From Thauera chlorobenzoica (GTDB lineage: Bacteria > Pseudomonadota > Gammaproteobacteria > Burkholderiales > Rhodocyclaceae), in assembly GCF_001922305.1 (NCBI RefSeq), contig NZ_CP018839.1, positions 2,914,001-2,978,000 of the forward strand: a DNA stretch of 64,000 bases, given 5' to 3'. Within the stretch, counting starts at the first letter, position 1, and each line of letters begins with the position of its first letter. Both the position numbers and the translations under genes were made by a program. The notes beneath the pieces were generated by a model. The model made no database searches, was not told the DNA's origin, and saw only the letters and a program-made list of their open reading frames with translations. Positions 25,064-39,007 of this stretch are shown here, piece by piece.

Positions 25064-25678
25064 TCAAACGCCGGGAAGCAGTCCGTGCAGCCGTGGCAGG
25101 TCGGCGGGCAGATCGACGTCGTGGACGGATGGAAACGACGCCACCGTCCACCCGAGACGGCCGATCCGACGCAGCGTCTCGCGTGCGACGACGTCGGTGC
25201 TCCAGGGCATGGCGGTGAACAGCAGGGGATGAAAGCGCCGGATCGCCAGCAACGCGTAGCCGCCATCGGCGCTCGGCACAAGGGCGGCATCGTGCTCGTG
25301 CAGCGCCGCGGCGGCGGCCTGCAGATGCGTCGGGGTCAATTCGGGGCAATCCGTGCCGATCAGTATCGCCGTCTCGCCTGCCGCAATCGTGCGTTGCGCT
25401 GCACGCGCCAGGCGGGCGCCGAGATCGCCTTCGCCCTGTTCACTCCAGTCGAGTCCGGCGGGAAGATCGAGCGTCGGCCAAACCGGGTGCTCGGGCGCCG
25501 GGGTGACACAGAGCTCGACCGCGCCCAGCCGGGCCTCGAGCGCCGTCCGCACGGTGCGTTCGAGCAGGCGCCGGGCGAGCCGGGCGGCCCCATCGGCGCC
25601 GAGCGCCGGAATCAGCCGGGTCTTGGCGAAGCCCGCGATCGGCGCTTTGACGATGATGACGATGCGGGCCGGGCTCAT
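25064..25678 (-). CDS. DUF2064 glycosyltransferase-like protein (rSAM/selenodomain-associated transferase 1 type)
   Basis: A 204-residue nucleotidyl/glycosyl-transferase-fold protein: IVIIVKAPIAGFAKTRLIP at the N-terminus, ILIGTDCPELTP in the middle and VPSADGGYALLAI further on. This matches the family named for co-occurrence with the ArsS-type radical SAM protein, linked by others to arsenosugar biosynthesis. It is the last gene of a five-gene minus-strand run starting at 30107 and overlaps its upstream neighbour by ATGA. Its substrate is unknown. Confidence 0.82.
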   Translation of the reverse strand: MSPARIVIIVKAPIAGFAKTRLIPALGADGAARLARRLLERTVRTALEARLGAVELCVTPAPEHPVWPTLDLPAGLDWSEQGEGDLGARLARAAQRTIAAGETAILIGTDCPELTPTHLQAAAAALHEHDAALVPSADGGYALLAIRRFHPLLFTAMPWSTDVVARETLRRIGRLGWTVASFPSVHDVDLPADLPRLHGLLPGV

Positions 25679-26349
25679 CGCCGGTAGGCCCGCGCCAGTT
25701 CGCTCGCCGGCCGTCCCCGCCAATAGGCCCAGCGCAGCCGCCACATCAGGAAGATGGTTCGCCAGACGCCGTGCGTTTCCCAGCGCCGGCCCAAAGTCGT
25801 GACCTTGCTCGTGCTGCAGGCGGGGGGCGATTGCGCACGCAGGCGCCGGGACATCTCGATATCCTCCATCAGCGCCAGATCGGGAAAGCCGCCGGCGGTG
25901 CGATAGGCTTCGCGGGTCATGAACATGGCCTGGTCGCCGGTGGCGATTCCAGTCAACCGCGAGCGCCAGTTGATCATCGAGGCAACGACCTTCAGCATCG
26001 CCGGGCGCCCGGCAATCCGCACGTCGAAGCGCCCCCATACCCGGCCAGCATGGAGGCACGAGCCGATCCGGGAGATCGCGTCCGCCGGCAAGGTGGTATC
26101 CGCATGGAGGAACAGCAGGACTTCGCCGGAGGTGTGTGCCGCGCCTGCGTTCATCTGCCGGGCACGGCCTGGTTCAGCCGTGATCGACGGCAAGCCCGCG
26201 AGCCGCGCCAGTGCAGGCGTGCCGTCCACGCTGCCGCCATCGACGATCAGCACTTCCACCCCCTGGCGCATAAGCGGGGCGAGATGCGCGCCCAGGGCGG
26301 CGATTGTCCGTGCCTCGTTCAGCGCGGGAACGACGATCGAAATCTTCAT
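25675..26349 (-). CDS. Family 2 glycosyltransferase (rSAM/selenodomain-associated transferase 2 type)
   Basis: A 224-residue GT-A protein: SIVVPALNEARTIAAL, VLIVDGGSVDGT, LFLHADTTLP (DXD-like) and a TGDQAMFM segment, with MEDIEMSRRLR as the catalytic-side acidic motif. It pairs with the transferase-1-type gene and a radical SAM gene in many genomes. The ATG at 26349 (MKISIVV) was chosen since the AAGGAG lies at normal distance; an in-frame ATG three codons upstream sits almost on top of the ribosome-binding site. ATGA overlaps with both neighbours. Confidence 0.85.
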   Translation of the reverse strand: MKISIVVPALNEARTIAALGAHLAPLMRQGVEVLIVDGGSVDGTPALARLAGLPSITAEPGRARQMNAGAAHTSGEVLLFLHADTTLPADAISRIGSCLHAGRVWGRFDVRIAGRPAMLKVVASMINWRSRLTGIATGDQAMFMTREAYRTAGGFPDLALMEDIEMSRRLRAQSPPACSTSKVTTLGRRWETHGVWRTIFLMWRLRWAYWRGRPASELARAYRR

Positions 26350-28526
26350 CGCGGCCATTCTCCTTGCCGATCCCGGCGCGGCTTGTTCAAGCGCCATTGG
26401 TGGAAACGCCCCACCCATTGCAGCAGCTTTTGCGGCGCGTGGGCGCGTTTCCATTCGCCGGCGGCATATTTGTTGGCTTCGGCGAGCGTCGGATAAACGT
26501 GGATGGTCGCGAGGATCTTGTTCAGGCCCAGCCCGTGGCGCATGGCGAGGACGTATTCGGCGAGGAGGTCGCCCGCATGTTCGCCGACAATGGTAACGCC
26601 GAGGATCCTGTCCTTGCCCGGCACGGTGAGGATCTTGACGAAACCGTGCGCCTCGCCATCGGTGATCGCGCGGTCGAGATCCTCGATGCCGAAGCGGGTG
26701 ACTTCGAACGGGATGCCGCGCTTGCCGGCCTCCTGCTCGTTGAGGCCGACGCGCGCCACTTCCGGATCGACGAAGGTGGCCCACGGCACCGCCGAGTAGT
26801 CGACACGGAACGTCCTGAACGGCGCGAACAGCGCATTCACCGCCGCATACCAGGCCTGGTGGGCGGCGGTATGCGTGAACTGATACGGGCCGGCGACGTC
26901 GCCGGCGGCGTAGATGTTGGGGTAACGGGTCTGCAGGTAGTCGTTGACCGCCACCGTATGCCCGGTCGGGATGCCCAGTTCTTCCAGGCCATAGCCCTCG
27001 AGGCAGGCCGCGCGGCCGACGGCGACGAGCAGTACGTCGAAGGGGATGCGGACCTCCTGGCCCCGGTGTTCGGCGACCAGGATCTTCTCGCCCGCGGCGA
27101 CGATGAAGCGTTTCGCCGCATGTCCGGTGCACAGCACGAGCCCTTCGGCGCGAAACCGTTGCATGACGATTTCCGACACCTCCACGTCCTCGCGCGGCAG
27201 GATGCGCTCGCCCCGCAGCAGCATCGTCACGCTGGCACCGAAGCGGGCGAAGGTCTGCGCCAGCTCCGCGCCGATCGGTCCGCCGCCGAGCACGAGCAAC
27301 CGGCGGGGCAGTTCGCGCAGGTTCCAGATCGTGTCCGAGGTGAAGTAGCCGACGTCGTCGATGCCGGGGATGGGCGGCACCGAGGGGCGCGCCCCGGCGG
27401 CGATGATGATGCTGCGCGTGGTCAGCGTCTCGCAGCCGCCGTCGCGGCGGGTGATCTCGACGGCCCAGGGCGAGACGATCTTCGCCCGGCCTTCGATCAC
27501 CTCGACGCCGAGGCCGGTGTAGCGCTCGATCGAGTCGTGCGGCTCGACGGTCTTGATGATCGACTGCACGCGCGCCATCACCTCGGCGAAGTCGAACTCC
27601 GCGCGCGCGTCGCGAATGCCGAACTCGTTGGCGCGCCGGATGTGCGACAGCAGCTTCGCCGAGCGGATCAGCGCCTTCGAGGGCACGCAGCCGGTATTGA
27701 GGCAGTCGCCGCCCAGCTTGTGTTTTTCGACCAGCGTCACCCTGGCCTTCACCGCCGCGGCGATGTAGCTGCTCACCAGCCCCGCCGCGCCGGCGCCGAT
27801 CACGACCAGGTTGCGGTCGAAAGTCGCCGGTTTCTTCCATCCGGCATAGACCTTGCGCGCCTTGACGAAGGCGACGAGCTTCTTCGCCAGCAGCGGGAAA
27901 ACCCCGAGCAGGGCGAAGGAGGCCAGCAGGGCGGGGGACAGGATGGCGCCGGCCGAGTCGATCTGCGCGAGCTGAGTGCCGGCGTTCACATAGACGATGG
28001 TGCCGGCGAGCATGCCGAGCTGGCTCACCCAGCAAAAGGTCCAGCTGCGGATCGGCGTCAGCCCCATCACCAGGTTGATGACGAAGAAGGGGAACAGCGG
28101 CACCAGACGCAGCGTGAACAGGTAGAAGCCGCCGTCCTGGTCGATGCCCGCGTTGATCGCACGCAGGCGTTCGCCGAAGCGGGCTTGCACCGCGTCGCGC
28201 AGCACGAAGCGGGCGGCGAGAAAGGCCAGCGTCGCGCCGATCGTGGAGGCGAAGGACACGATCAGCACGCCCCAGCCGAGGCCGAAGATCGCGCCTGCCG
28301 CGAGCGTCATGATCGCCGCGCCGGGCAGCGACAGCCCGGTGACGGCGACGTAGAGGGTGAAGAAGAGCAGCGCCGCGGCGAGCGGGTGCGCCTCACGCCA
28401 GGCCTCGATGGCGCCCTGCTGCGCCTTGAAGAAATCGAGACTGAAGTAGCGCCCGAGATCGAAGGCGAAGAAAAGGACGATCGCAAGGACGAGCGCGGCG
28501 AGCAGTACAAGTCGGCTGTGCTTCAT
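26346..28526 (-). CDS. TVP38/TMEM64 membrane domain fused to mercuric-reductase-like FAD oxidoreductase
   Basis: A 726-residue fusion. Residues 1-220 are a TVP38/DedA-like membrane domain (GLSLPGAAIMTLAAGAIFG, FLAARFVLRD, RLVPLFPFFVINLVMG). Residues 235-700 are a class I pyridine nucleotide-disulfide oxidoreductase with FAD motif GAGAAG (244-249), redox-active cysteines 275 and 280 in GGDCLNTGCVPSK, NAD motif GGGPIGAELAQ, and YAAGDVAGPYQFTH. The C-terminal dimer domain has HVYPTLAEA but no C-terminal cysteine pair like MerA. It probably passes electrons from NAD(P)H to a membrane-linked disulfide or metalloid substrate. Its stop overlaps the glycosyltransferase start. Confidence 0.88.
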   Translation of the reverse strand: MKHSRLVLLAALVLAIVLFFAFDLGRYFSLDFFKAQQGAIEAWREAHPLAAALLFFTLYVAVTGLSLPGAAIMTLAAGAIFGLGWGVLIVSFASTIGATLAFLAARFVLRDAVQARFGERLRAINAGIDQDGGFYLFTLRLVPLFPFFVINLVMGLTPIRSWTFCWVSQLGMLAGTIVYVNAGTQLAQIDSAGAILSPALLASFALLGVFPLLAKKLVAFVKARKVYAGWKKPATFDRNLVVIGAGAAGLVSSYIAAAVKARVTLVEKHKLGGDCLNTGCVPSKALIRSAKLLSHIRRANEFGIRDARAEFDFAEVMARVQSIIKTVEPHDSIERYTGLGVEVIEGRAKIVSPWAVEITRRDGGCETLTTRSIIIAAGARPSVPPIPGIDDVGYFTSDTIWNLRELPRRLLVLGGGPIGAELAQTFARFGASVTMLLRGERILPREDVEVSEIVMQRFRAEGLVLCTGHAAKRFIVAAGEKILVAEHRGQEVRIPFDVLLVAVGRAACLEGYGLEELGIPTGHTVAVNDYLQTRYPNIYAAGDVAGPYQFTHTAAHQAWYAAVNALFAPFRTFRVDYSAVPWATFVDPEVARVGLNEQEAGKRGIPFEVTRFGIEDLDRAITDGEAHGFVKILTVPGKDRILGVTIVGEHAGDLLAEYVLAMRHGLGLNKILATIHVYPTLAEANKYAAGEWKRAHAPQKLLQWVGRFHQWRLNKPRRDRQGEWPR

Positions 28527-28599
28527 GCTGTGGGCCCGGTCGGTTCATGGCTGGCGCAAGCGCCGCGGATGGCTTGGTCGTGCGCCCGATCACACATCA

Positions 28600-29787
28600 T
28601 CACCGCCTTGCGTTCGCCGGCAGCGCCTCGCGCCACTCGAAGAGCACGTATTCCGAGGCCTCGGCGTCGGCGAGGGCCTGGCGCATCATCCCGGGGTCGG
28701 CGGGGAGGCCGTTGCCGCTCAGCACGCCGCGATAAAAGTCGGCGTAGAAAGCATCGGGTTCGACGCGCACGCGATAGACGAGTGCGACCGCCTCGCGGCG
28801 CAGGGGCGCGTCGTAGCCCAGAACGGCTTCGGCTCCCGGCAACAGGCGGGTATCGGACAGCTCCGCGGCGAGATCCGGGCTCACTTCGCGGGCGATGCGC
28901 TGGCTGCGCAGGGTGCCGGCGAGCGGGCGGGCGCGGGCATCGACCTGGAACGCTTCCATCGTCACCCGCGGCGTGACGTAGGTCGGGAAGGCGTGGCCGG
29001 TGCCGGTATTGACGACGCGCAGCCGCCCGCCGAGACGTCCGGCGCGCGCTTGCGCCGGCTCCGCTTCGATCGTGACCCCCGCGGCCGTCATCTGCGGGTC
29101 GTGGATGCCGCGCCACAGATGGCGCCGATCCGGCATGTGGCACGATTGGCAGCTGCGTCCCTCGCGCGCGGCGGGGCTGGCGCGCCACTCGGCGTAGGTG
29201 TTCTCGAGCAGCTTGCCGTTGAGGGCGTAGCCGTCCTCCTCGAACTGGTGACAGGCGGCGCAGAAGCGGCTGTCGGCAAAGGCAGAGGTCGCCCGCCAGC
29301 CGTCGTGCGGCAGGCCGGCCCCGACAGGCGCAACCGAGCCGTCCCGGCGCGGCGGGCCATAACGGACGTGCCCGCGCACATGGCAGCCGGCGCAGGTCAG
29401 TCCCTGTTCGTGCCCCCGGCCGCCCGGCTGCTTGCGGATCGCGGCGACCAGCGACGAGGCCTGCTCGGCGAGCGGTGCGTGGCAGCGCAGGCAGGACTGG
29501 TGTTCGTGGTCCGCCTCGGGGGCCATCGCGAGGAGCTGGCCGAGCACGCCGGGCCCCATCGCCCGGGCGTGGTAACTCGTGCGCCAGTCGTCGAATTGCA
29601 CCGCATGGCAGCTCCCGCAGGCGGCCGGATCGAGCGTGGCCTCCTGCGGGGAAAACCGCGCGGGTGCTTCGCCCTGTGGCGCGAGGGGGCGCTGCCAATG
29701 GCGGGCGAGAAACCCCCCGCTGTCGGCGACCGCCAGGCCCGGCAGGAGCGCCAGCAAGGCGATGAGGAACCCGTGCCGGCTCCGCAT
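28600..29787 (-). CDS. Secreted pentahaem cytochrome c
   Basis: A 395-residue protein with signal peptide (residues about 1-21, ending AVA) and five CXXCH haem sites at 57-61, 99-103, 132-136, 176-180 and 213-217, all in the N-terminal 220 residues. The remaining part (RLRVVNTGTGHAFPTYVTPR onward) lacks haem sites and may form a beta-rich binding domain. It looks like the multihaem cytochrome c554/NapC-fold-associated class, but I do not recognise a named enzyme. It lies between the NPCAAK repeat peptide and the TVP38-FAD oxidoreductase, so a periplasmic electron-transfer role within the same operon is likely. Confidence 0.85.
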   Translation of the reverse strand: MRSRHGFLIALLALLPGLAVADSGGFLARHWQRPLAPQGEAPARFSPQEATLDPAACGSCHAVQFDDWRTSYHARAMGPGVLGQLLAMAPEADHEHQSCLRCHAPLAEQASSLVAAIRKQPGGRGHEQGLTCAGCHVRGHVRYGPPRRDGSVAPVGAGLPHDGWRATSAFADSRFCAACHQFEEDGYALNGKLLENTYAEWRASPAAREGRSCQSCHMPDRRHLWRGIHDPQMTAAGVTIEAEPAQARAGRLGGRLRVVNTGTGHAFPTYVTPRVTMEAFQVDARARPLAGTLRSQRIAREVSPDLAAELSDTRLLPGAEAVLGYDAPLRREAVALVYRVRVEPDAFYADFYRGVLSGNGLPADPGMMRQALADAEASEYVLFEWREALPANARR

Positions 29788-29825
29788 TTACGCAGCCACC
29801 CGCGGCACGTCCGCTCCAGCCCCCA

Positions 29826-30107
29826 TCACTTCTTCGCCGCGCAGGGGTTCATCGCTGCGCAGGGGTTTTTCGCCGCGCAAGGATTCTTCGCTGCGCAAGG
29901 GTTCTTCGCTGCGCAAGGGTTTTTTGCGGCGCAGGGGTTCGCGGCGGCACAAGGATTCGTACCGGTAGCGACGAGCATGGGCATGGCTTTCGAGGGCGCG
30001 ATGCCATCCGGCGCCGCCTGCACGGCGGCAGGCATGCCGAGCGCGGCGCTCAGGACGGCGGCGGAGAACAGCGTGCTCAATGTCTGACGGGGGTGGCTCG
30101 TTTTCAT
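29826..30107 (-). CDS. Secreted NPCAAK-repeat peptide
   Basis: A 93-residue protein. A signal peptide (residues about 1-31, SAALGMPAAVQA) is followed by a 19-residue spacer and then seven tandem hexapeptides NPCAA(A/K/M) from residue 51 to 92. Every repeat has one cysteine, so the mature protein carries seven regularly spaced thiols. A clear AGAGGA ribosome-binding site precedes the ATG. It is first in an operon with the pentahaem cytochrome, downstream of an ECF-type promoter motif. A second NPCAAK protein with a similar signal peptide is encoded at 34278-34883. Function unknown; metal binding or post-translational modification of the repeats is plausible. Confidence 0.75.
   Translation of the reverse strand: MKTSHPRQTLSTLFSAAVLSAALGMPAAVQAAPDGIAPSKAMPMLVATGTNPCAAANPCAAKNPCAAKNPCAAKNPCAAKNPCAAMNPCAAKK
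29832..29957 (-). repeat. Seven 18-bp tandem repeats encoding NPCAA(K/A/M)
   Basis: Imperfect 18-bp tandem units, coding on the minus strand and differing mainly at third positions, so the protein repeat is conserved better than the DNA. Related units occur at the two ends of the gene at 34278-34883. Confidence 0.9.
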
Positions 30108-30167
30108 GGTCGGATCCTCTTTGTCGATGGGCGTGACCGTGGACGGTTCCGGTGGTCACAGCACTTG

Positions 30168-30192
30168 GTCGTCGGGAGGGGGCGAATCCTTA
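30168..30192 (-). promoter_or_regulatory. ECF sigma promoter motif for the NPCAAK peptide-cytochrome operon
   Basis: Reading on the minus strand: TAAGG, a 16-bp spacer, then CGACCAA. The same pattern recurs four more times in this island, each upstream of a gene start. It lies about 60 bp before the ATG of the repeat peptide. Confidence 0.6.
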
Positions 30193-30546
30193 CGCCGGCA
30201 TGCACTCAGCGTGGATCGCTCCCGCGGCGTGCGGGAGAGGTGGTTCGAGTAGTTGCTCAGCGTCTTCATAGCATTTCATTCTCCTTCTGGTTGATCATGT
30301 CGTGCGTCCGTCGGGCAGCGCTGCAAGTATCTGCGAGAGCGGGGCACGGGCGGCGGCGTCCTGCACGACCCGCGCTCCTCCTCGATTCGCCGCCCGGGCC
30401 ACGGCAGAAGCGACAAAGGAAAACGAGGGGCAGATCTGCGATGGCTCCCGATGGAGGTAGGCATGCGACACCGTCTTCTTCGCCTTGCCGGCGCGATCTG
30501 CGCATTCATTCGTGGCGATGGTCGCGAGGATTCTGGCAGGCCGGTG

Positions 30547-30572
30547 TAAGGTTTGCCCCGTCCGTCCGACTA
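30547..30572 (+). promoter_or_regulatory. ECF sigma promoter motif for arsS
   Basis: TAAGG, a 15-bp spacer, then CGACTA, 41 bp upstream of the arsS start codon. It shares the extended TGTAAGG context with the copies at 34982, 35328 and 35449. Confidence 0.6.
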
Positions 30573-30612
30573 GTCACACGAATCCACCAGACGCTTGCGC
30601 AAGGAGCCCTCG

Positions 30613-31611
30613 ATGCACCCCACCTTTCCGCTGCTCGCGGCGACGGACTTCCCCCGCATCCGTCGCGGCCGGATCGAAACCCTGCAGGTGAACCTCGGCT
30701 ACCGCTGCAACCAGTGTTGCGTGCATTGCCACGTCGATGCCGGGCCGAAGCGCACCGAGGAGATGTCGGGGGCGACCGTCGACGCGGTGATCGACTTCAT
30801 CGACGCCAGCCCGACGCTGGCGACGTTCGACCTGACCGGCGGCGCGCCGGAGCTGAACGCGCACTTTCGCCGCCTCGTGCGGGCGGCGCGGGGGCGCGGG
30901 CTGCGCGTCATCGACCGCTGCAATCTGACCATCCTCGAGGAGTCCGGCCAGGAAGATCTGGCGACCTTCCTGGCCGCACAGGGGGTGGAGATCGTCGCCT
31001 CGCTGCCCTGCTATCTGGCGGACAACGTCGACCGCCAGCGGGGCAAGGGCGTCTTCGGGACGAGCATCCGTGCGCTGCAAAGACTCAACGCCCTGGGCTA
31101 CGGCGAGGACGGCAGCGGGCTGACCCTGAACCTCGTCTACAACCCGCAGGGGCCGGTGTTGCCGCCACCGCAGGCGTCGCTCGAGCGCGCGTACCGGGAA
31201 CACCTCGGCGCCGGGTTCGGCATTCGCTTCAACCAGCTGTTCGCACTCGCCAACATGCCGATCAAGCGCTTCGGCAGCACGCTGGTGTCGAAGGGGCAGT
31301 TTGCCGGCTACATGAGGATGCTGCGCGACGCGCACCGCGCCGACAACCTCGCCGCGGTGATGTGCCGCAGCCTCATCAGCGTCGACTGGCAGGGCTATCT
31401 GTACGACTGCGACTTCAACCAGCAGCTCGAACTGCCGATCGCGGCCGTCGGCCATCCGCGCCTGCACCTCCGCGACGCGACCGCCGCGACGCTCACCGGC
31501 GGCGCCATCCGGGTGGCCGACCACTGCTACGGCTGCACGGCGGGGAACGGCTCGAGCTGTGGCGGGGCGCTGGCCGACGGCCGCGCCGATGCCGCGGTTC
31601 GCGCCGCGTGA
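30613..31611 (+). CDS. arsS: Radical SAM/Cys-rich protein of the ArsS type
   Basis: A 332-residue radical SAM enzyme. The 4Fe-4S motif CX3CX2C is at Cys32, Cys36 and Cys39 in GYRCNQCCVHCHVDAG, and DLTGGAPELN follows as the SAM-binding GGE-like strand. The C-terminal Cys-rich domain has CDFNQQLELP and DHCYGCTAGNGSSCGGAL. It matches the family named arsenosugar biosynthesis radical SAM protein ArsS, also known for association with the selenodomain transferases found at 25-26 kb. The ATG at 30613 is chosen because AAGGAG lies just upstream; an in-frame ATG at 30595 lies before that site. A truncated methyltransferase follows. Confidence 0.85.
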   Translation: MHPTFPLLAATDFPRIRRGRIETLQVNLGYRCNQCCVHCHVDAGPKRTEEMSGATVDAVIDFIDASPTLATFDLTGGAPELNAHFRRLVRAARGRGLRVIDRCNLTILEESGQEDLATFLAAQGVEIVASLPCYLADNVDRQRGKGVFGTSIRALQRLNALGYGEDGSGLTLNLVYNPQGPVLPPPQASLERAYREHLGAGFGIRFNQLFALANMPIKRFGSTLVSKGQFAGYMRMLRDAHRADNLAAVMCRSLISVDWQGYLYDCDFNQQLELPIAAVGHPRLHLRDATAATLTGGAIRVADHCYGCTAGNGSSCGGALADGRADAAVRAA

Positions 31612-31658
31612 CGGCTGGGCTCGACGATGCCCGCCCTCCGACACAGGGGAAGCACGCC

Positions 31659-31961
31659 ATGCATGACATCGTGAAGGACTACTACGGCAAAGAGCTGCAA
31701 GGCAGCACCGACCTGCGCACCACCGCCTGCTGCGATGCGAGCCAGATGCCGGCGTGGCTCAAGCCGCTGCTGGCGAAGGTCCATCCCGAGGTGCTGTCGC
31801 GCTACTACGGCTGTGGCCTGGTGTGCCCGCCGCTGCTCGAGGGCTGCCGCGTGCTGGACCTGGGCAGCGGCGCGGGGCGCGACGTGTATGTGCTGGCTCA
31901 GCTGCGCGTGATAGTCGAAACCATGCGCCAGTGCGGGCTTGACGACCTCGAAGTAGGGTGA
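31659..31961 (+). pseudogene. Truncated ArsM-like SAM methyltransferase
   Basis: The first 82 or so residues read as the start of an ArsM-like methyltransferase (MHDIVKDYYG, then CCDAS, YYGCGLVCPP and the SAM motif I VLDLGSGAGRD). The sequence then loses similarity at about residue 82 and ends 18 codons later after crossing into the antisense of a YiiX-like gene. A normal family member is several hundred residues long, so most of the catalytic domain is missing. It sits directly after arsS, where a partner arsenic methyltransferase is expected. The deletion junction is near 31898-31910. Confidence 0.7.
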
Positions 31962-32642
31962 AACGTCGAAATCGCGCGGTGCGAACAGGCTGTGGTGGCG
32001 GATGTGCAGGATCTCTTCCATGCAGTCCGGGCACATCGGGTCGCCCGTGGAACGTTGTGTCACGATGGGCAGGATCGGATAGCGCACGGACTGAAAAGCC
32101 TGCGCGATCAGCGTCGAGCAGATCGCGCGCGTCGGGTCCGCGCTGCCCAGAGCGATCATCCGCCGCCGGAATCGCTGCGGCACCGGTGGGGTCGGCAGCA
32201 GGTAGCGTGCGAGGTCGATCACATTGCGCAAGTCGTACTGGTGGCCGATCCGCTCGGTGACATAGCAGATAACGCGGCGGCAGTCTTCTTCGCTCAGGCC
32301 TCGGGGACGGCAGATGCGGCTGTGAAGCCCGGCGAATTCGCCGACATCGACGCTGCGCACGCCCTCGACGACATCGGCTTCGACGAAGCAGTGCCCGTCA
32401 GGCGCCCGCCCGTGCAGGGCGTCGCCGACGAAAAGCGCCGCGTGCGACCAGGTCGATTGGGTCAGGTATTTCACCGCGGTGCTGATCCGCGAGTGGCCTT
32501 CGACCAGGAGCACGTCGCCCGGGCGCAGGCAGGCGAGAAGTTCGTCCGGTGGGGTGGGGCGGGATGTGCCGTGAACATGCACCGGGCGGCTGAGCGTGCG
32601 CCCGAGCCAGTGGCCGATGCGGTTGAATATCGGTCCCATCAT
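31908..32642 (-). pseudogene. YiiX-like permuted papain-fold hydrolase, 3' end replaced
   Basis: About 245 residues match YiiX/YebB-like permuted NlpC/P60 proteins: PGDVLLVEGHSRIS, the catalytic His67 in WSHAALFVGD, and Cys175 in RAICSTLIAQAF. After residue 245 the open frame runs on to 31527 only by reading the antisense of the truncated methyltransferase and arsS, so those last 125 or so codons are not genuine. The core looks nearly complete and may still fold. It is the last gene of the sigma factor operon. Confidence 0.65.
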
Positions 32643-32669
32643 GCTGTTCCCGGAGATGGGCCGCCAGGC

Positions 32670-32861
32670 TCAGCGCCCTTCGTCGGCGCCGCCTTCGCGC
32701 CGCCGCCGCGTCGCCTTGCGCAGGAAGACCATGTGCTTGCCGTAGTTGGTGCAACCCAGGCACATCATGGTGTGCACCTTGAGCGTGAACCGCTCGCGCA
32801 GCGTCAGCGTGCGCTCGAACCCTTCGGACATGAGGCGGGTCACCTCCTTGCAGCTGATCAT
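32670..32861 (-). CDS. Small zinc-finger (zf-HC2-like) putative anti-sigma factor
   Basis: A 63-residue protein starting MISCKEVTRLMSEGFE and carrying MMCLGCTNYGKH, a His/Cys pattern (Cys4, His30, Cys34, Cys37) that fits a short zf-HC2 zinc-binding anti-sigma domain. There is no transmembrane segment. The gene overlaps the sigma factor stop by ATGA, the usual sigma/anti-sigma arrangement. The zinc-thiol site could sense oxidants or thiophilic metals, as ZAS-type anti-sigma factors do (inference). Confidence 0.75.
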   Translation of the reverse strand: MISCKEVTRLMSEGFERTLTLRERFTLKVHTMMCLGCTNYGKHMVFLRKATRRRREGGADEGR

Positions 32862-33469
32862 TGGATGGCCTCCCCCTGGAACCAGCGATTTTCAAGACAT
32901 TCGCGCAAGCCGAGGCGGGCGCGGTGGAGGATCACCCAGCAGTTGCTGCGGGTGATCCCCAGTTGCTGGCAGATCTCCCCCGTTTCCAACTCGAGAAACT
33001 CGCGCATCATATAGACGCGGGCGATCTGCGCGGGCAGGTTGTCGAGGCAGGCGTCGAACACCGCCCAGAACTCTTTCTGCACAAAGGATGCATCCGGGTC
33101 GGACCAGGTGGCGGGGCGGTCGTCCGGGTTCCAGAAGCCGCGCTCGTCGAAGAGCGCGTCGAAGTCTTTCAGGTCGGCATCACCGCGGCTGTCGACGAGA
33201 TCGGCGCCGCAGACTTCGCGCGACGAGGCGCGGATGTGATCGACGATCTTGTTGCGCAGGATCGCGAACATCCAGGTCTTGAAGCTCGCACGACCGGCAA
33301 AGCTCCGCGCGCTGTTCATCGCCGCGATGAGGGCTTCCTGCACCATGTCCTCGGCCGCGCCCGAATCGCGCAGCTGGAGCTGCGCAAAACGCAGCATGTC
33401 GCGCCGGATGGCGATGAGAAATGGATCGTCCCAGGATATTTCCGCGGGGCGGGTGCCCTCATGCTTCAT
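32858..33469 (-). CDS. ECF-type RNA polymerase sigma factor
   Basis: A 203-residue sigma-70 family group IV protein. Region 2 spans about residues 15-85 (LQLRDSGAAEDMVQEALIAA, FKTWMFAILRNKIVDHIR) and region 4 about 140-195 (LDNLPAQIARVYMMREFLELETGEICQQLGITRSNCWVILHRAR, shown by its helix-turn-helix). The ATG at 33469 overlaps the preceding stop (ATGA). A TAAGG-CGAC motif upstream of its own operon and four similar motifs nearby suggest it activates itself and the whole island. Confidence 0.88.
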   Translation of the reverse strand: MKHEGTRPAEISWDDPFLIAIRRDMLRFAQLQLRDSGAAEDMVQEALIAAMNSARSFAGRASFKTWMFAILRNKIVDHIRASSREVCGADLVDSRGDADLKDFDALFDERGFWNPDDRPATWSDPDASFVQKEFWAVFDACLDNLPAQIARVYMMREFLELETGEICQQLGITRSNCWVILHRARLGLRECLENRWFQGEAIQ

Positions 33470-34281
33470 CGATCGCTCCTCCCGGACGGCGGTTGATATT
33501 CCTCCCCGCCTTCCACGAGGGCGGCGAGAAACCGATCGACCGACAGCGGCAGGTAGCCGGTGATCTCGAGCGTACGATCTTCGAACACGTCCTGCTCCGG
33601 GTGCGCGCGCAAGTGTGCGCCGATGACCGCATCCCGGTGCCGGAGCAGGCCTTCGATCCATGGTCGGTACAAGCGCAGCATCGCTCCCAGCCAGCGGTTC
33701 GCCGGCCAGGAAGGCCAGGCGTGATCGATCTCGAAGCGCCCGAGCATCCGGATGACGTCCGCTGCGGGGTACCAGGTTTCACCGGTGACCCAGCGATTGC
33801 AGGAGAACAGGCCGATCGGCTCGCCCCAGGCGTCCATCGAGATGGCGACCAGATGGCTGATCGCATCGTCCCCCGTCGGCCGGATTCCGCCCGCCTGGGC
33901 GAAGGCCTGTGGCGCCACCCCCGCAGGCATGCCCCCGGCACGGAGGAAGGTGTGGAAGTGCCCGTGCTCGATGCTGCCGCGGTGGGCGTGATAGTAGTAC
34001 TGGGCGTGCGTCTCGGCGTCGAAGACGTCGTCGCGTGGATAGTGCTCCATCTCGACGAACTCGCCCTGGCCGCGCAGGACTTCGCCGACCACATTGAGCC
34101 CGGCCTTGGCGAGCACCCGGCGGCACTCGAGCACTTCCTGCCCGGCCGCAAGCAGTGCGTGGCGGGTGGTCGGACCGAGATCCTCCAGTCCGGGCAGGAA
34201 ACCGGCCAGCTCCGGCTCCCGCACGGCCGCACCGCCCGGTGAGCGGGCGACCGTAGCAGCAGAGGAAGGCGTGGCATTCAT
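33466..34281 (-). CDS. Conserved-looking protein of unknown function, His-rich centre
   Basis: A 271-residue soluble protein that I do not recognise. It begins with a low-complexity leader (residues 1-22), then a helical part (RHALLAAGQEVLECRRVLAKAG), followed by a striking aromatic/histidine stretch YYYHAHRGSIEHGHFHTF about residues 94-111 that could bind metal. Later it has SMDAWGEPIGLFSCNRWVTGE. The start overlaps the stop of the NPCAAK cytochrome and the stop overlaps the sigma factor start, both by ATGA, so its amount is tied to both. A modifying or handling partner of the NPCAAK protein is possible, by position only. Confidence 0.7.
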   Translation of the reverse strand: MNATPSSAATVARSPGGAAVREPELAGFLPGLEDLGPTTRHALLAAGQEVLECRRVLAKAGLNVVGEVLRGQGEFVEMEHYPRDDVFDAETHAQYYYHAHRGSIEHGHFHTFLRAGGMPAGVAPQAFAQAGGIRPTGDDAISHLVAISMDAWGEPIGLFSCNRWVTGETWYPAADVIRMLGRFEIDHAWPSWPANRWLGAMLRLYRPWIEGLLRHRDAVIGAHLRAHPEQDVFEDRTLEITGYLPLSVDRFLAALVEGGEEYQPPSGRSDR

Positions 34282-34883
34282 CGCTTCGCTGCGCAAGGAT
34301 TCTTCGCCGCGCAGGGATTCTTCACCGCACAAGGATTCTTCGCCGCGCTCGGGGTTTTTGCCAGATGCGCCTTGAAACCTTTCTGTTCCTCTTCCATGTA
34401 GGCCACCAGCGCGGCGAGATCCTTCGATTTCCAGTCCAGCGCCTTGCCTGCCATCGGCGTGACGATGCACAACTGGACCATCTCGTCGAGATGGATCTGC
34501 TTCATGCCGTACATTCCGGAAGCCATCTCCACCTTGTGCGGGTAGGGCTGGGCGAAGCTTTCGTTGTAGGCGGCATAGCCGGTGTGGCAGCTCGCGCAGG
34601 AGAGCTGGTTCGTCGACAGGCGGGTGTCGGAAAAGAGCTTCTCGCCGGCGGCGACCAGTTCGGCACGGGCGCCCTGGTACGGTTTGTAGCCGGCGGGGCG
34701 CTGGCTCGCCTTGGCCGCACAGGGGTTCTTCGCCGCGCACGGGTTGGCGGCGCTCGATGCCGGGGTGCCTGCCGCACATGGGTTTGCCTGCGCGAGTGCC
34801 GCGAGCGGCATCCCCAGTGCGGCGCTCACCAGCCCGGCGGAAACCGTTGCGATGGCGGTACGGCTCGTGTTGACGTATTTCAT
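34278..34883 (-). CDS. Secreted monohaem cytochrome c with terminal NPCAAK repeats
   Basis: A 201-residue protein. A signal peptide (about residues 1-32, with SAALGMP as in the repeat peptide at 29826) is followed by three NPCAA units around residues 34-58. Then comes a cytochrome c domain with CXXCH at 96-100 (CASCH), possible Met ligands around 120-127, and a C-terminal extension with three more NPCA units ending NPCAAKR. The same hexapeptide in two proteins of one island points to a shared partner. The ATG at 34883 has GGAGG upstream; an ATG seven codons earlier was rejected. It heads the operon with the unknown protein, sigma, anti-sigma and YiiX-like genes. Confidence 0.82.
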   Translation of the reverse strand: MKYVNTSRTAIATVSAGLVSAALGMPLAALAQANPCAAGTPASSAANPCAAKNPCAAKASQRPAGYKPYQGARAELVAAGEKLFSDTRLSTNQLSCASCHTGYAAYNESFAQPYPHKVEMASGMYGMKQIHLDEMVQLCIVTPMAGKALDWKSKDLAALVAYMEEEQKGFKAHLAKTPSAAKNPCAVKNPCAAKNPCAAKR

Positions 34884-34958
34884 GGACTGCCCCTCCGTTG
34901 TCATGTGGAACTGTCTGGCACGACAGACCGTCCGCTGATGCGGATGGTCAGGGGATTG

Positions 34959-34982
34959 GTCGTACGGCTTGGCGGAACCTTA
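34959..34982 (-). promoter_or_regulatory. ECF sigma promoter motif for the sigma factor operon
   Basis: Minus strand: TAAGG, a 15-bp spacer, then CGACCAAT, about 75 bp before the cytochrome start. Because this operon encodes the sigma factor, the motif implies autoregulation. Confidence 0.6.
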
Positions 34983-34995
34983 CATGGGCTCGATC

Positions 34996-35023
34996 GAAAA
35001 GCGGCCCGGCTTGCACCGGGCCG
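34996..35023 (-). terminator. Rho-independent terminator after the small secreted protein gene
   Basis: On the minus strand an 8-bp GC stem CGGCCCGG/CCGGGCCG with a 6-base loop, followed by CTTTT. It separates the 35064-35252 gene from the next promoter motif. Confidence 0.75.
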
Positions 35024-35063
35024 ACCGGAGTCGCAGCGTTGCCGCCGGGATCCGCCCCCGAGC

Positions 35064-35252
35064 TCAAGGACCATACATCTCGAGCAGACGGCTCTGCCCG
35101 TCGAACGCCGATTTCTGCACCTGGGACTTCGCCGCGCTGGCGGATGCCGTGGTGTTCTGCGGGCAGTCGCCGGCATGGGCCGGCATCGCTGCGATCGCGG
35201 CGAATGCAAAAAGCATTGCGACGGCGGCAAGCTTGTAGGTCGTGGCTTTCAT
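35064..35252 (-). CDS. Small secreted protein of unknown function
   Basis: A 62-residue protein with a clear signal peptide (MKATTYKLAAVAMLF to about Ala27, AHA cleavage) and a mature part of about 35 residues starting GDCPQNTTASAS, with one cysteine and the end SRLLEMYGP. AAGGAG lies at good spacing before the ATG. It has its own upstream ECF-type motif (35305-35328) and its own downstream terminator, so it is a monocistronic member of the same regulon. It has no NPCAAK repeats. Not recognised. Confidence 0.7.
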   Translation of the reverse strand: MKATTYKLAAVAMLFAFAAIAAMPAHAGDCPQNTTASASAAKSQVQKSAFDGQSRLLEMYGP

Positions 35253-35304
35253 GGCTGTCTCCTTTGTCAGGGGCGAGCGGCTTGTGCGCCTCTCTGATGA
35301 ATGA

Positions 35305-35328
35305 GTCGTATGGCGCGCAGCAGCCTTA
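35305..35328 (-). promoter_or_regulatory. ECF sigma promoter motif for the small secreted protein
   Basis: Minus strand: TAAGG, a 15-bp spacer, then CGACTCA, about 50 bp before the start codon at 35252. Confidence 0.55.
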
Positions 35329-35448
35329 CACGCCCGACGCCCATTCTTCCTCCTGCCCCCTTCAACTCAGCGTCGGATTCAATGTAGTTCATCCTCCGCC
35401 CAGAAACGAAGGGGGTGATGAGCAAGGTGCAAAACCGTTCAGGTCGTG

Positions 35449-35472
35449 TAAGGATTACCCGGTTCGTCCGAT
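35449..35472 (+). promoter_or_regulatory. ECF sigma promoter motif for the deleted arsS copy
   Basis: TAAGG, a 15-bp spacer, then CGATTA, 47 bp before the ATG at 35520. It has the same layout as the motif before the intact arsS at 30613. Confidence 0.55.
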
Positions 35473-35519
35473 TATCGAAAGACCGCAATACGATAACGAC
35501 CGCTCGCGAGGACTCCCGG

Positions 35520-35834
35520 ATGCACCCGACCTTTCCGCTGCCCGCCGTCACCGACTTTCCCAGGATCCGCCGTGGGACGATCGATACAACCCTGCAGGTC
35601 AATCTCGGCTACCGCTTCAACCAGCTGTTCACGATCGCCAATATGCCGATCAAGCGCTTCGCCAGCGCGCTGGTATCGAAAGGGCAGTTCGCCGGCTACC
35701 TGAAGACCCTGCACGAGGCGCACCGCGTCGACAAGCTCGCGGCGGTGATGTGCCGCAACTTGGTCAGCGTCGACGGGTGGGGGGCCACGACGGGCGGACC
35801 AGCGCGGCGCGGGGTGGCGGGAGCAGGGCGGTGA
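35520..35834 (+). pseudogene. Internally deleted and 3'-truncated arsS copy
   Basis: The first 31 or so codons (MHPTFPLPAVTDFPRIRRG, LQVNLGYR) match the N-terminus of the intact radical SAM gene at 30613. The sequence then jumps directly to FNQLFTIANMPIKRF, which in the intact protein lies near residue 210. The removed part contains all three cluster-binding cysteines and the SAM-binding strand. Similarity ends again at NLVSVD, after which a short unrelated tail overlaps the egtD start. The product cannot be a radical SAM enzyme. The promoter motif is retained. Confidence 0.85.
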
Positions 35835-36781
35835 GTTCCCCCCGCTGCGTGCAGTTCGCACCCGAAGCCCCGGCGCGGATCCGGGCCGAACTGCTCGCCG
35901 GCCTGAGCGCGCCGGTGGCGACGATCGCGCCGAAATACCTGTACGACGCGCTCGGCGCGCGGCTCTTCGCGGCGATCACCGTACTGCCCGAGTACTACCC
36001 GACACGCACCGAGGCGGCGATCTTCGCTCGATACCTGTCGGAAATGGCCGCACTCCTCGGCCCCGCCGCAACCCTGGTCGACCTCGGCGCGGGCAACTGC
36101 GAGAAGGCCGAACGCCTGTTCGCGGCCTTGGGCGTGCGTCGCTACGTCGCCGTCGATATCTCGGTGGACTACCTGCATGCGTCGCTGGAACGGCTTCAGC
36201 GCCATCATCCGGCGATCGCAATGCTGGGCGTGGGGCTCGATTTCACCCGTTCGCTGTGCCTGCCACCGGAGGCCGGCGACGGCCCGCGCACGTTGTTCTA
36301 CCCGGGCTCGAGCATCGGCAACTTCACCCCCGGTGAGGCTCTGGCCCTGCTGCGCCAGGTGCATGCCGAATGCCGCGGTGGGGCCTTGCTGATCGGCGTC
36401 GATCTGGTCAAGGCGCGCGACCTCCTCGAAGCGGCCTACGACGACCCGCTCGGCGTCACCGCCGCGTTCAACCGCAACCTGCTGCGCCATGTCAACCGGC
36501 TGGCGGGGACCGACTTCGACCTCGCCGACTGGCGCCATGTCGCCTTCTTCAACGCGCAGCGGTCGCGCATCGAAATGCACCTGGAAGCGCTGCACGACAC
36601 GACCGTGCGCTGGGCCGAAGGCGAGCGCCGCTTTGCCGCCTCCGCCCGCATCCACACCGAGAACTCGTACAAATGGCGCGTCGACGACTTCGCCGCACTG
36701 CTCGCCGCGGCGGGGTTTTCGGCGTCGCGCCACTGGTGCGATGCGCGCGGCTGGTTCGCGGTGTTCGCCGCCCATGGCTGA
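35831..36781 (+). CDS. egtD: L-histidine N-alpha-methyltransferase EgtD
   Basis: A 316-residue EgtD-family methyltransferase: KYLYDALGARLFAAITVLPEYYPTRTE near residues 35-61, SAM motif VDLGAGNCEKAERL (83-96), FYPGSSIGNFTP, and the C-terminal IHTENSYKW. It trimethylates histidine to hercynine, the scaffold for ergothioneine or selenoneine. The start is taken as GTG at 35831; it overlaps the end of the arsS remnant, so the original upstream context may have been lost. The convergent senA and nearby senB place it in a selenoneine pathway. The missing partner is a selenophosphate synthetase (SenC/SelD), not in this window. Confidence 0.9.
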   Translation: MSSPRCVQFAPEAPARIRAELLAGLSAPVATIAPKYLYDALGARLFAAITVLPEYYPTRTEAAIFARYLSEMAALLGPAATLVDLGAGNCEKAERLFAALGVRRYVAVDISVDYLHASLERLQRHHPAIAMLGVGLDFTRSLCLPPEAGDGPRTLFYPGSSIGNFTPGEALALLRQVHAECRGGALLIGVDLVKARDLLEAAYDDPLGVTAAFNRNLLRHVNRLAGTDFDLADWRHVAFFNAQRSRIEMHLEALHDTTVRWAEGERRFAASARIHTENSYKWRVDDFAALLAAAGFSASRHWCDARGWFAVFAAHG

Positions 36782-36803: not shown

Positions 36804-37982
36804 CTAGAGCGCGCAGCTGCGAAAGCCGCTGTAGAGGTCGTTGCGCTCGGGAGTGAAGTAGTTGCGGTAGCGCGGATGCGCCATGCGCGGGCTGGTCGCC
36901 CGGCTCGCGCCGCGCAGCACGTAGCGCTCGCCGAACCACGGCGCCGAGTAATCGCGGTAGGGGTGGGGGGCGAAGCCGGGGTAGGGGGCGAAGCGGCTGG
37001 CGGTCCATTCCCAGACCTGGCCCCAGCGAAACCCCGGCTGGGTCAGCGCGGCGAGTTCCCACTCGGCTTCGCTCGGCAGGCGGCGCCCCGCCCAGCGGCA
37101 CCAGGCGTCGGCTTCGTCCCAGCGCAGATGCACGGCCGGGGCGTCGAGCGCCAGCGCCTCCCAGCGGCCGAACACGCAGCACTGCCAGCTCCCATTCTGG
37201 CGGCGCAGATAGCGCGGCGGCGCGGCACCGGTCTGGTCGACGAAAGCCAGGTAGCGGCGCCAGCTCACCACCTCGGCATCGATCTCGAAGGCCGGCAGCG
37301 CGACTTCGTGCGCGGCGAGCTCGTTGTCGAAGGCAAAGCCGTCGCCGTGCCAGCCGAGTGTCCAGCGCTGTGCCGGGACGCTCAGTGCGCGGGGCTCCGG
37401 CACGCCACCCGCCGGCCCGGACAGCGTCTCGGGCCACGCACCGGACAACGTCCCGGGCAGCGGAATATCGAGCGCCTGCGCCATGTAGATTCCGGCTTCG
37501 CCGTGCATGTCCTCGTGAAACAGCGCGAGGCGGAAAAAATACAGCGCCGCATCGATCTCCGGGGTGGCGGCGAGCAGGGCCAGCGTCTGCACCAGGCCCG
37601 CGGCCAGATAAGCGCGGGTCGCGGCCAGATCGGGCAGCTCGAGCTGCCAGCGGGTCGCATGTGCAACCGTGCTCGAGTCGTACAGCGCATCGGCCCCGGG
37701 CAGCCGCCCGGCGGGGCGCTGATGGTCGGGGTCGCAGGCGATGCCCATCGCGCGCTGCCGGTTGCGCGCGATCCAGTAGTCCTGGAACCAGCCGACATGC
37801 CCGGCTTCCCAGCGTGGCGGGTTGAGCTGGGGCGAATACGGAATCGTCAGCCCTTCGCCGAGGGCGGCGGCGTAGGCGTCGAGCAGCGCCAGGGTGCGTG
37901 CGCGGCTGTCGGCAAGCGCGGCGGCGAGGAGGCGGCGGCCACCGCGGCGGGCGGCTTCGGAGCGGGCAGGGGCGAGGTTCAT
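36804..37982 (-). CDS. senA: Selenoneine synthase SenA (EgtB-like non-haem iron enzyme)
   Basis: A 392-residue protein with an N-terminal DinB-like domain and a C-terminal formylglycine-generating-enzyme-type domain (RLPSEAEWELAA, WGQVWEWTAS, VLRGASRAT, RNYFTPERNDLYSGFR). The iron ligands appear as His62 (AGHVGWFQ), His156 and His160 (FHEDMHGE). EgtB-family enzymes join a thiol to hercynine. The SenA branch uses a selenosugar, and the assignment to SenA instead of EgtB rests mainly on the divergent senB next door. Its start codon is only 17 bp from that of senB. Confidence 0.8.
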   Translation of the reverse strand: MNLAPARSEAARRGGRRLLAAALADSRARTLALLDAYAAALGEGLTIPYSPQLNPPRWEAGHVGWFQDYWIARNRQRAMGIACDPDHQRPAGRLPGADALYDSSTVAHATRWQLELPDLAATRAYLAAGLVQTLALLAATPEIDAALYFFRLALFHEDMHGEAGIYMAQALDIPLPGTLSGAWPETLSGPAGGVPEPRALSVPAQRWTLGWHGDGFAFDNELAAHEVALPAFEIDAEVVSWRRYLAFVDQTGAAPPRYLRRQNGSWQCCVFGRWEALALDAPAVHLRWDEADAWCRWAGRRLPSEAEWELAALTQPGFRWGQVWEWTASRFAPYPGFAPHPYRDYSAPWFGERYVLRGASRATSPRMAHPRYRNYFTPERNDLYSGFRSCAL

Positions 37983-37999
37983 GGCGGGAGCGGGGGGCG

Positions 38000-39007
38000 A
38001 TGACCGGTGCCCCGAGTATGCCGCAACTGGTGATCGTCAGTCCGGCACTGCGCGATGCCAACAACGGCAACTGGCAGACGGCGCGGCGCTGGCAGCGCCA
38101 CCTTGCCGGCGTCTGCCGCGTGCGCATCGTCAAGGCCTGGCCCGATGCGCTCGCTGCCGGCGACGCTGCGATGATCGCGCTCCATGCGCGGCGTTCGGCC
38201 GAAGCGATCGCGGCCTGGGCCGGCGCCCACCCGGGCAAGGGCCTCGCGGTGGTGCTCACCGGCACCGACCTGTATCGCGACATCGCTGCCGACGCCGCGG
38301 CGCGGCATTCGCTCGATCTCGCCCAGGCGCTCGTCGTGCTGCAGGAACGCGCACCGCTGGCGCTGCCGGATGCGGTGCGCGCCAAGGCCCGGGTGATTTT
38401 CCAGTCCACCACGGCGCGCAAGGTGCTGGCGAAGTCATCGCACCATCTGCGGGCGGTGATGGTCGGCCACCTGCGCGAGGAAAAGTCGCCGCAGACCCTG
38501 TTCACCGCCGCACGGCTGCTCGCCGGGCGGGACGACCTCTTCATCGACCACATCGGCGCTGCACTCGATCCGGCGCTCGGCGAGGCCGCGCGGGCGACGA
38601 TGGCGGCGGCGCCGAACTACCGCTGGCTCGGGGGCCGGCCGCACGAGGCGGTGCGCCGCCACATCCAGCGCGCGCATCTGCTGATCCACGCCAGCTGCAT
38701 GGAAGGTGGCGCGCACGTCGTGATGGAGGCGGTCGCGAGCGGCACGCCGGTGCTCGCGTCGCGCATCGACGGCAACGTTGGCATGCTCGGCGCCGATTAC
38801 GCCGGCTACTTTCCCTGGGGCGATGCCGAAGCGCTGGCGACGCTGCTGCTGCGCTGTCGCGAATCGGTCGCAGGGGAGGGTGGCGGACTGATGGCGCAAC
38901 TGGCCGCACAGTGCCGCCAGCGTGCGCCGCTGTTTGCACCGGAGCGCGAGCGCGCCGCGCTGCACCGGCTGCTCGGCGCGCTGCTGCAAGCTGCGGGAAA
39001 GGCGTGA
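38000..39007 (+). CDS. senB: Selenosugar synthase SenB (glycosyltransferase)
   Basis: A 335-residue GT-B glycosyltransferase: IVSPALRDANNGNWQTARRWQ at the N-terminus, VLTGTDLYRDI, VGHLREEKSPQTL and HASCMEGGAHVVMEAVASGTPV (nucleotide-sugar site). This matches the family that makes selenoglucose/seleno-GlcNAc from UDP-sugar and selenophosphate for selenoneine. Two possible ATGs (38000 and 38018) are both near a G-rich Shine-Dalgarno. The next gene downstream is the substrate-binding protein of a putative selenium importer, 164 bp away. Confidence 0.85.
   Translation: MTGAPSMPQLVIVSPALRDANNGNWQTARRWQRHLAGVCRVRIVKAWPDALAAGDAAMIALHARRSAEAIAAWAGAHPGKGLAVVLTGTDLYRDIAADAAARHSLDLAQALVVLQERAPLALPDAVRAKARVIFQSTTARKVLAKSSHHLRAVMVGHLREEKSPQTLFTAARLLAGRDDLFIDHIGAALDPALGEAARATMAAAPNYRWLGGRPHEAVRRHIQRAHLLIHASCMEGGAHVVMEAVASGTPVLASRIDGNVGMLGADYAGYFPWGDAEALATLLLRCRESVAGEGGGLMAQLAAQCRQRAPLFAPERERAALHRLLGALLQAAGKA

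Follow-up and report, generated by a model that had tools for sequence, protein, structure and literature searches.

The closest described counterpart of the regulator discussed here is sigmaE of Neisseria, an extracytoplasmic function (ECF) sigma factor whose meningococcal anti-sigma factor is MseR; the cysteines of MseR are important or essential for its activity, but His30 is not (PMC2893595). Promoters of neisserial sigmaE follow the consensus GTMAGBWTT, 12-13 nt, CGTCTAAH, and their transcripts begin six bases downstream of it (PMC2893595); the sigma factor targets its own operon, msrA/msrB and a few others (PMC2893595, PMC3240639). Expression of meningococcal sigmaE reportedly does not change on oxidative stimuli (PMC2893595). 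Here we describe a candidate regulon of this kind in a 64,000-nt stretch of Thauera chlorobenzoica DNA (NZ_CP018839.1, positions 2,914,001 to 2,978,000; hereafter the window). From open reading frames and family scans, the region of interest, which we call the island, reads as five apparent transcription units around one ECF sigma gene, each unit having one [T/C]GTAAGG-N15/16-CGA[C/T] site.

The likeness to Neisseria begins with the 63-aa anti-sigma factor, whose Cys4, His30, Cys34 and Cys37 stand at positions identical to those of MseR when its translation is set against the published positions. In both systems a small zinc-type anti-sigma factor (ZAS) with these four ligands is encoded beside its sigma factor in an autoregulated operon; in the window, a site at 34959-34984 in front of the sigma operon predicts this autoregulation, on sequence evidence only. 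The promoter layout is also the same, GTMAGBWTT-12/13-CGTCTAAH in Neisseria corresponding to GTAAGG(N3)-12/13-CGACYAA here, provided that the three bases after GTAAGG are counted into the -35 element. At the -10 element the window has CGAC (once CGAT) where Neisseria has CGTC, and both forms occur in relatives. Because ligand positions and promoter layout match, we file this putative regulator under the sigmaE/MseR class, an assignment made from these two features and not from protein alignment with Neisseria, and leave its targets as the new part: arsS, genes for NPCAAK-repeat proteins, arsenosugar-type glycosyltransferases and probably egtD. The first-pass annotation of this DNA had proposed a periplasmic thiol/metalloid response not described as a unit. 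The regulator class is in fact known, while the target set appears to be new: our literature search found no report linking arsS, arsenosugar genes, NPCAAK or the TGTAAGG element to an ECF sigma factor, which is weak evidence as subscription journals were mostly uncovered. A periplasmic thiol/metalloid response is plausible, but the anti-sigma factor looks cytoplasmic.

We consider it likely that all five sites serve as promoters for the ECF sigma factor encoded at 32858-33469 and define one small regulon under a presumably thiol-sensitive, MseR-type anti-sigma factor. Its units would be (1) the NPCAAK peptide, a multihaem cytochrome, a VTT-flavoprotein and two arsenosugar-type glycosyltransferases; (2) arsS with an arsM remnant; (3) the NPCAAK cytochrome, DUF6969, sigma, anti-sigma and C92 genes, hence an autoregulated operon; (4) a small secreted protein; and (5) an arsS remnant with egtD. 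Motif, gene order, family membership, conservation and sigma coupling are read from the sequence, and we infer transcription, the release mechanism, the inducer and the biochemical role. The sigma factor would be held by the zinc-finger anti-sigma factor, whose gene overlaps its own, until a cytoplasmic thiol-reactive signal (perhaps an oxidant or an arsenic(III), copper or selenium species) freed it by attacking the Cys/Zn site, and the output would be cysteine-rich exported proteins, redox cytochromes and arsenic- or selenium-handling enzymes. This reading is preferred because of the local clustering of the sites, their recurrence before orthologues, their coupling to the sigma gene, the match to Neisseria in ligands and promoter, and the promoters found upstream of NPCAAK genes in seven of nine genomes. 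A known type of stress switch appears to have been rewired onto arsenosugar genes and unusual cysteine-repeat proteins. The arsenosugar-type genes would gain a named, testable regulator with a promoter conserved in many members of the family, and a tie to the NPCAAK proteins, an undescribed group whose relatives in public data number in the hundreds. The sigmaE/MseR class would reach beyond Neisseria into many Rhodocyclales/Burkholderiales genomes, and its promoter consensus could be put to use there.

All five core matches (TAAGG-N15/16-CGAY) are present on the strands first assigned to them, at 30168-30192 (-), 30547-30570 (+; the end had been given as 30572), 34959-34982 (-), 35305-35328 (-) and 35449-35472 (+). 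As claimed, four combine TGTAAGG with a spacer of 15; the fifth, at 30168, has CGTAAGG and a spacer of 16. The full -10 element CGACCAA is found at just two of the five (34959 and 30168). Gaps between the end of CGAY and the start codon measure 42, 47, 52, 60 and 75 nt, where roughly 40-80 bp had been estimated. The strict form TGTAAGG-N15/16-CGAY occurs four times in the window, whereas 100 shuffles averaged 0.04 and never gave four; the looser TAAGG-N14-17-CGAY occurs five times compared with a mean of 0.90, again with no shuffle reaching the observed count.

When the whole source genome (3,735,506 bases) was scanned with the reversed pattern as control, TAAGG-N15/16-CGAY gave 18 matches and its control 75; five of the 18 share a stretch of 5.3 kb, for which the density of the other 13 gives a Poisson P of 1.8e-11. 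The genome-wide search proposed at first pass, run as TGTAAGG-N15/16-CGAY, returned five matches, four of them in the island (reversed control 4). GTAAG-N16/17-CGWCYAA returned three (control 1), two in the island and one at C1:686626; the latter (686625-686654 on that contig of the source genome, locus L001) is the sole extended-motif site outside the island, 63 nt upstream of the gene for a 137-aa secreted protein of no family, after which comes a gene for a secreted, thioredoxin-like protein of AhpC/TlpA type. This extra site leaves intact the proposal of an ECF regulon with matching promoters, but not that of a strictly self-contained one. The sigma gene is alone of its kind, as had been said of the island: in the whole genome a single TIGR02943 sigma factor exceeds the family cut-off, namely the island's.

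Scanning relatives for the sigma gene returned 63 loci; we used 50 and dropped 13 (L089-L101) as weak or partial sigma matches. Six Aromatoleum/Azoarcus loci (L039-L043 and L088; sigma identity 77-84%, in L088 over part of the gene only) hold 31 core-motif sites and no reversed-pattern match; the remaining 44 loci have ten sites, three of which (L085-L087) fall within sigma genes, as well as 22 matches to the reversed pattern. The Aromatoleum/Azoarcus sites precede orthologues of the NPCAAK peptide, the NPCAAK cytochrome, the VTT-flavoprotein, the TIGR04283 transferase and arsS, and sites in relatives also precede genes for DUF3179-like, HD-domain and small secreted proteins. Spacer bases vary between relatives while both promoter elements are preserved. 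Within the 10-kb flanks of the sigma gene, arsS is present in 13 of the 50 loci. A variant site with a diverged spacer, CGTAAGG-N16-CGACGAA, was seen in L039 (8780), L040 (8773), L041 (8780) and L043 (8750), 20-22 nt before an HD-domain gene lying between DUF6969 and sigma; the HD-domain protein of L039 is NosR-like at 107 bits, below the cut-off of 400.

We then counted sites and genes across 121 genomes of the family, 60 of which (62 genes) were scored as sigma-bearing by a near-full-length match of at least 38% identity, leaving partial matches in G005, G015 and G040 uncounted; Fisher tests treat related genomes, sites or genes as independent, and their P values are indicative only. DUF6969 exceeds its cut-off in 14 of the 121 genomes and arsS (TIGR04167) in 32. 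We read 30 arsS loci, which omit G041 and G023; G041 has an exact site before its arsS (L220). Scored against TGTAAGG/CGWCYAA (maximum 14, threshold at least 12), the arsS upstream region reached the threshold in 17 of the 30, with the site 23-62 nt before the start codon, compared with 0.33% of trials on shuffled upstream sequence. By sigma status, the promoter was found in 14 of 19 loci from genomes with a TIGR02943-like sigma factor (at least 51% identity), in three of eight without one and in none of three with a diverged one (38-42%). In G018, G067 and G115 arsS is distant from the sigma gene and the site is still present, which points to control in trans.

The extended motif TGTAAGG-N15/16-CGWCYAA matched 60 times over the 121 genomes compared with 15 for the reversed control. 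Fifteen of the 60 lie inside sigma genes and were excluded from regulon counts; of the other 45, 42 are in the 60 sigma-bearing genomes (diverged ones included) versus 8 of 15 controls (Fisher P 0.0013); the sigma gene is no more than 12 kb away from 20 of the 45. With the shorter TGTAAGG-N15/16-CGAC, 29 of 138 matches fall within 12 kb of a sigma gene (27 outside sigma genes), where an area estimate predicts about 0.5. The reversed control outnumbered this shorter form in most genomes, so here the evidence is carried by position and not by number.

NPCAAK repeats were found in 13 of the 121 genomes; nine are clear, and the four weaker ones were left out of the arsS and promoter counts. Eight of the nine clear genomes have arsS, as do 24 of the 112 others (P 8.5e-5 if every genome is treated as independent, although two of the nine share a genus), and a promoter score of at least 12 of 14 was obtained upstream of NPCAAK genes in seven of the nine. 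In the protein collection the NPCAAK peptide has 245 matches and the NPCAAK cytochrome 700. Neither Pfam nor NCBIfam has a family that the peptide matches, and the string NPCAAK was not found in the literature searched, which mostly leaves out subscription journals. Because NPCAAK and arsS co-occur, one may go further and suppose that the NPCAAK proteins form a novel group of exported cysteine peptides that replaces bufferins under the same sigma factor, with ArsS and its partners (VTT-flavoprotein, glycosyltransferases, cytochromes) loading or modifying the repeat thiols in place of, or in addition to, the synthesis of free arsenosugars; we regard this as a speculative and rather unlikely extension.

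Several observations weigh against a single regulon defined by five promoters. The arsS 5' region is duplicated in the window, which makes the site at 35449 a paralogue of that at 30547 and turns the five into four separate promoters and a copy. The short motif is not enriched in the genome overall, its reversed control exceeding it as given above, so isolated matches mean little and single ones are not evidence. Five of the 19 arsS loci in sigma-carrying genomes score below 12, and conversely G009, G037 and G049 have the arsS promoter with no detected TIGR02943-like sigma factor, so that another sigma factor can probably use the promoter or the assemblies lack the sigma gene. Among the 50 sigma loci, 34 have no exact TAAGG-N15/16-CGAY site in the flanking stretch examined, including three from Aromatoleum (L065, L071, L074; sigma identity 54-57%). 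Finally, complete arsenosugar synthesis from the cluster is doubtful because its ArsM is truncated.

What the promoter precedes in relatives bears on what the regulon responds to. Forty sites were picked by hand from the 138 TGTAAGG-N15/16-CGAC matches, mostly in sigma-bearing genomes, and by reading 34 precede a plausible gene and six do not (L168, L169, L181, L194, L196, L199). Family scans downstream of the sites identified MsrA, MsrB and MsrP (four genes), BufA2, DUF2282, HvfA-type precursors and thioredoxin-like proteins, along with DUF3179, DUF1223, DUF3047, an OvoA-type ovothiol synthase and an anti-sigma factor. Thirty loci from the order, taken as the search returned them, contributed 34 sites. 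Sigma genes contain 15 of these; a plausible gene follows 13 of the remaining 19, and none follows six. These 13, in part confirmed by family scan and otherwise read by eye, include MsrP (2), MsrA, MsrB, BufA2 (2), DoxX, thioredoxins (2), ArsS and a SoxA/TsdA-type cytochrome with NPC repeats. Judged by family, the common theme of these putative targets is the repair and protection of envelope sulphur groups together with cysteine metallophores. In L166 (G030:C58) a TGTAAGG-N16-CGAC site at position 82 lies 113 nt upstream of the gene for an OvoA-type 5-histidylcysteine sulfoxide synthase (TIGR04344 683 bits, cut-off 400), an arrangement that may parallel egtD behind the arsS remnant in the window.

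Such targets lend substance to the idea, a considerable possibility if short of probable in our view, that the promoter is indeed of this sigma class but serves mainly an oxidant response (methionine and cysteine oxidation, chlorine species), with arsS and NPCAAK proteins as accessories unrelated to metalloids. Besides the Msr enzymes and thioredoxins, the promoter in relatives precedes genes for an AhpC/TSA protein and ovothiol synthase; sigmaE controls msrA/msrB in Neisseria, and in Brucella and Azospira ECF16 systems combine a methionine-rich peptide with MsrPQ/YedYZ (PMC8315932, PMC4623255). In the source genome, however, no Msr gene lies behind the six sites examined (other core matches were left unexamined and no msr search was made), and the indifference of meningococcal sigmaE expression to oxidative stimuli also speaks against an oxidant as the main signal. 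As to ECF16 itself, SigF/NrsF of Caulobacter and Azospira and BcrS/AbcS of Brucella resemble the present system in that an ECF sigma factor drives a repetitive exported peptide and redox enzymes. They differ in having a six-transmembrane DUF1109/NrsF anti-sigma factor, methionine instead of cysteine repeats and, in Brucella, promoters of the form TGTAACC...GCGAA (PMC8315932, PMC4623255). Membership of ECF16/NrsF was rejected, the neighbouring anti-sigma factor being a 63-aa zf-HC2/NF052368 protein.

The BufA2/DUF2282 and HvfA-type precursor genes that follow the same promoter in relatives favour instead a regulon for buffering copper or another metal, in which the NPCAAK proteins would be bufferin-like periplasmic chelators without MNIO modification, a possibility that we consider less likely than not. 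Bufferin/HvfA clusters, which make RiPP metallophores, likewise encode exported, cysteine-containing small proteins, and some are clustered with sigma genes (PMC12452194). The source genome has NPCAAK repeats and, across its whole length, no match to the MNIO enzyme family (PF05114: 0), so the bufferin arm is missing from it, and the NPCAAK proteins may be said to fill a slot similar to that of the cysteine peptide (bufferin) of relatives. Against this stands the NPCAAK peptide itself, which has no bufferin signature and matches no bufferin family; its metal binding is hypothetical. Membership of the MNIO/bufferin group was rejected for lack of PF05114 and of any Pfam/NCBIfam precursor model matching the peptide.

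It seems very unlikely to us that a different, unlinked regulator reads the motif and that the linked sigma factor is a passenger. The presence of the motif before arsS in three of the eight arsS genomes with no detected TIGR02943-like sigma factor would fit such a regulator, but the concentration of extended sites in sigma-bearing genomes (42/45) and near the sigma gene (20/45), and a Neisseria sigmaE consensus that is nearly identical (PMC2893595), argue for the linked one. That the matches are chance or housekeeping-promoter resemblances is barely credible and was rejected: the reversed pattern is commoner genome-wide, as chance would allow, but the window shuffles, the clustering, the conservation before orthologues (31 sites versus 0 in the six relatives), the arsS promoters and the coupling to sigma all stand against coincidence.

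The promoter of the preferred regulon also occurs within sigma genes. Fifteen of the 62 family sigma genes (L019, L020, L034, L038, L237, L238, L247-L251, L253, L255, L258 and L261) carry TGTAAGG-N15-CGWCYAA internally, 75-101 nt before the anti-sigma start, where region 4.2 reads CKE(L/T)xxS/TxS/TN-like; the window's own sigma gene has no embedded promoter. The distance to the anti-sigma gene proves nothing, because sigma genes without the motif show about the same spacing. In the 21 sigma genes with Cys-Lys at the site, the cysteine codon is TGT in 19, compared with 4 of 21 for the cysteine ten codons on and 16 of 66 for cysteines elsewhere. At the -10 element, 14 of 18 serines have the codon TCC or TCT, as do 41 of the 175 serines found elsewhere in these genes; the remaining sigma genes use AGC for the serine at this position in 16 of 17 cases. 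This codon choice suggests selection on the DNA. On a tree, presence of TGTAAGG at the site (18 genes) needs only four changes, so the trait was kept in a few lineages and not gained many times independently, and shared ancestry accounts for part of the codon pattern. Of the 15 embedded sites in the order, ten have a recognisable anti-sigma start downstream; these loci are no independent test, because they were found by the exact pattern. The arrangement suggests a feedback layout, and our literature search found no report of a promoter embedded in a sigma gene before the anti-sigma gene.

The features of the island are collected in Table 1. The gene identities first assigned are supported wherever a family exists.

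Table 1. Predicted genes and promoters of the island, in window coordinates (cut-offs in brackets).
Feature	Position	Strand	Basis
Arsenosugar-type glycosyltransferase TIGR04282	25064..25681	-	Family scan
Arsenosugar-type glycosyltransferase TIGR04283	25675..26361	-	Family scan
VTT (TVP38) domain fused to MerA/lipoamide dehydrogenase-like flavoprotein	26346..28526	-	Family scan
Multihaem cytochrome c	28600..29787	-	Family scan
93-aa secreted NPCAAK-repeat peptide	29826..30107	-	Translation; no Pfam/NCBIfam match
Putative promoter CGTAAGG-N16-CGAC(CAA) of NPCAAK peptide operon	30168..30194	-	Extended-motif match
Putative promoter TGTAAGG-N15-CGAC of arsS	30545..30570	+	Window shuffles; family arsS loci
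ArsS, radical SAM/DUF3641	30613..31611	+	TIGR04167 445 bits (300)
arsM remnant	31659..31961	+	ArsM similarity ends at residue 82 of 100-aa frame
C92 (YaeF/YiiX) permuted papain-like protein, last gene of sigma operon	31908..32642	-	Family scan
63-aa zinc-type (ZAS, zf-HC2) anti-sigma factor, overlaps sigma stop codon	32670..32861	-	NF052368 antisigmaE 68 bits (50)
ECF sigma factor, TIGR02943/PRK12532 type	32858..33469	-	TIGR02943 250 bits (162); PRK12532 282.5 (276)
DUF6969 protein	33466..34281	-	Family scan
Secreted SoxA/TsdA-type cytochrome c domain, NPCAAK-type repeats at both ends	34278..34889	-	Family scan and translation
Putative promoter TGTAAGG-N15-CGAC(CAA) of cytochrome/DUF6969/sigma/anti-sigma operon	34959..34984	-	Window shuffles; site also before orthologous cytochrome in L039, L040, L041, L043, L088
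62-aa secreted protein	35064..35252	-	No family
Putative promoter TGTAAGG-N15-CGAC before 62-aa secreted protein	35305..35330	-	Window shuffles
Putative promoter TGTAAGG-N15-CGAT before internally deleted arsS copy and egtD	35447..35472	+	Paralogue of arsS promoter
Internally deleted arsS copy, 104 aa	35520..35834	+	Duplicated arsS 5' region
EgtD, histidine N-alpha-methyltransferase	35831..36781	+	TIGR03438 366 bits (291)

For the 62-aa secreted protein no orthologue was found across the 50 sigma loci. The C92 frame extends to 31527, and its 3' limit at 31908 was inferred from 735-nt matches in relatives. At about 31905 a rearrangement seems to join the plus-strand arsM remnant to the 3' end of the minus-strand C92 gene (31659-32642), the C92 frame continuing antisense to arsM.

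ArsS (TIGR04167) and both glycosyltransferase families, TIGR04282 and TIGR04283, are present, which we take to be families of the ArsS/ArsM arsenosugar pathway. The island differs from that pathway in its truncated ArsM, the cluster (the only place considered, with no genome-wide ArsM search) holding a remnant and no intact partner, and in its predicted ECF control, which our literature search did not find described for the pathway.

Over 35447-36781 the duplicate of the arsS 5' region, with its large internal deletion, runs into egtD with a 4-base overlap. Because egtD overlaps the stop codon of the arsS remnant, it is probably behind the same ECF promoter as that remnant. Next to egtD, at 36804-39007, lies a selenoneine-type cluster with senA on the minus strand (NF041186 486 bits, cut-off 420) and a senB-type gene divergent on the plus strand (TIGR04348 447 bits, cut-off 300). 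The position of egtD beside these genes suggests that a histidine-betaine gene was captured by the promoter, on the assumption that transcription passes through the remnant. In a Rhodoferax metagenome-assembled genome (L060), SenA and EgtD genes are found about 4-6 kb from the sigma gene, as in the window.

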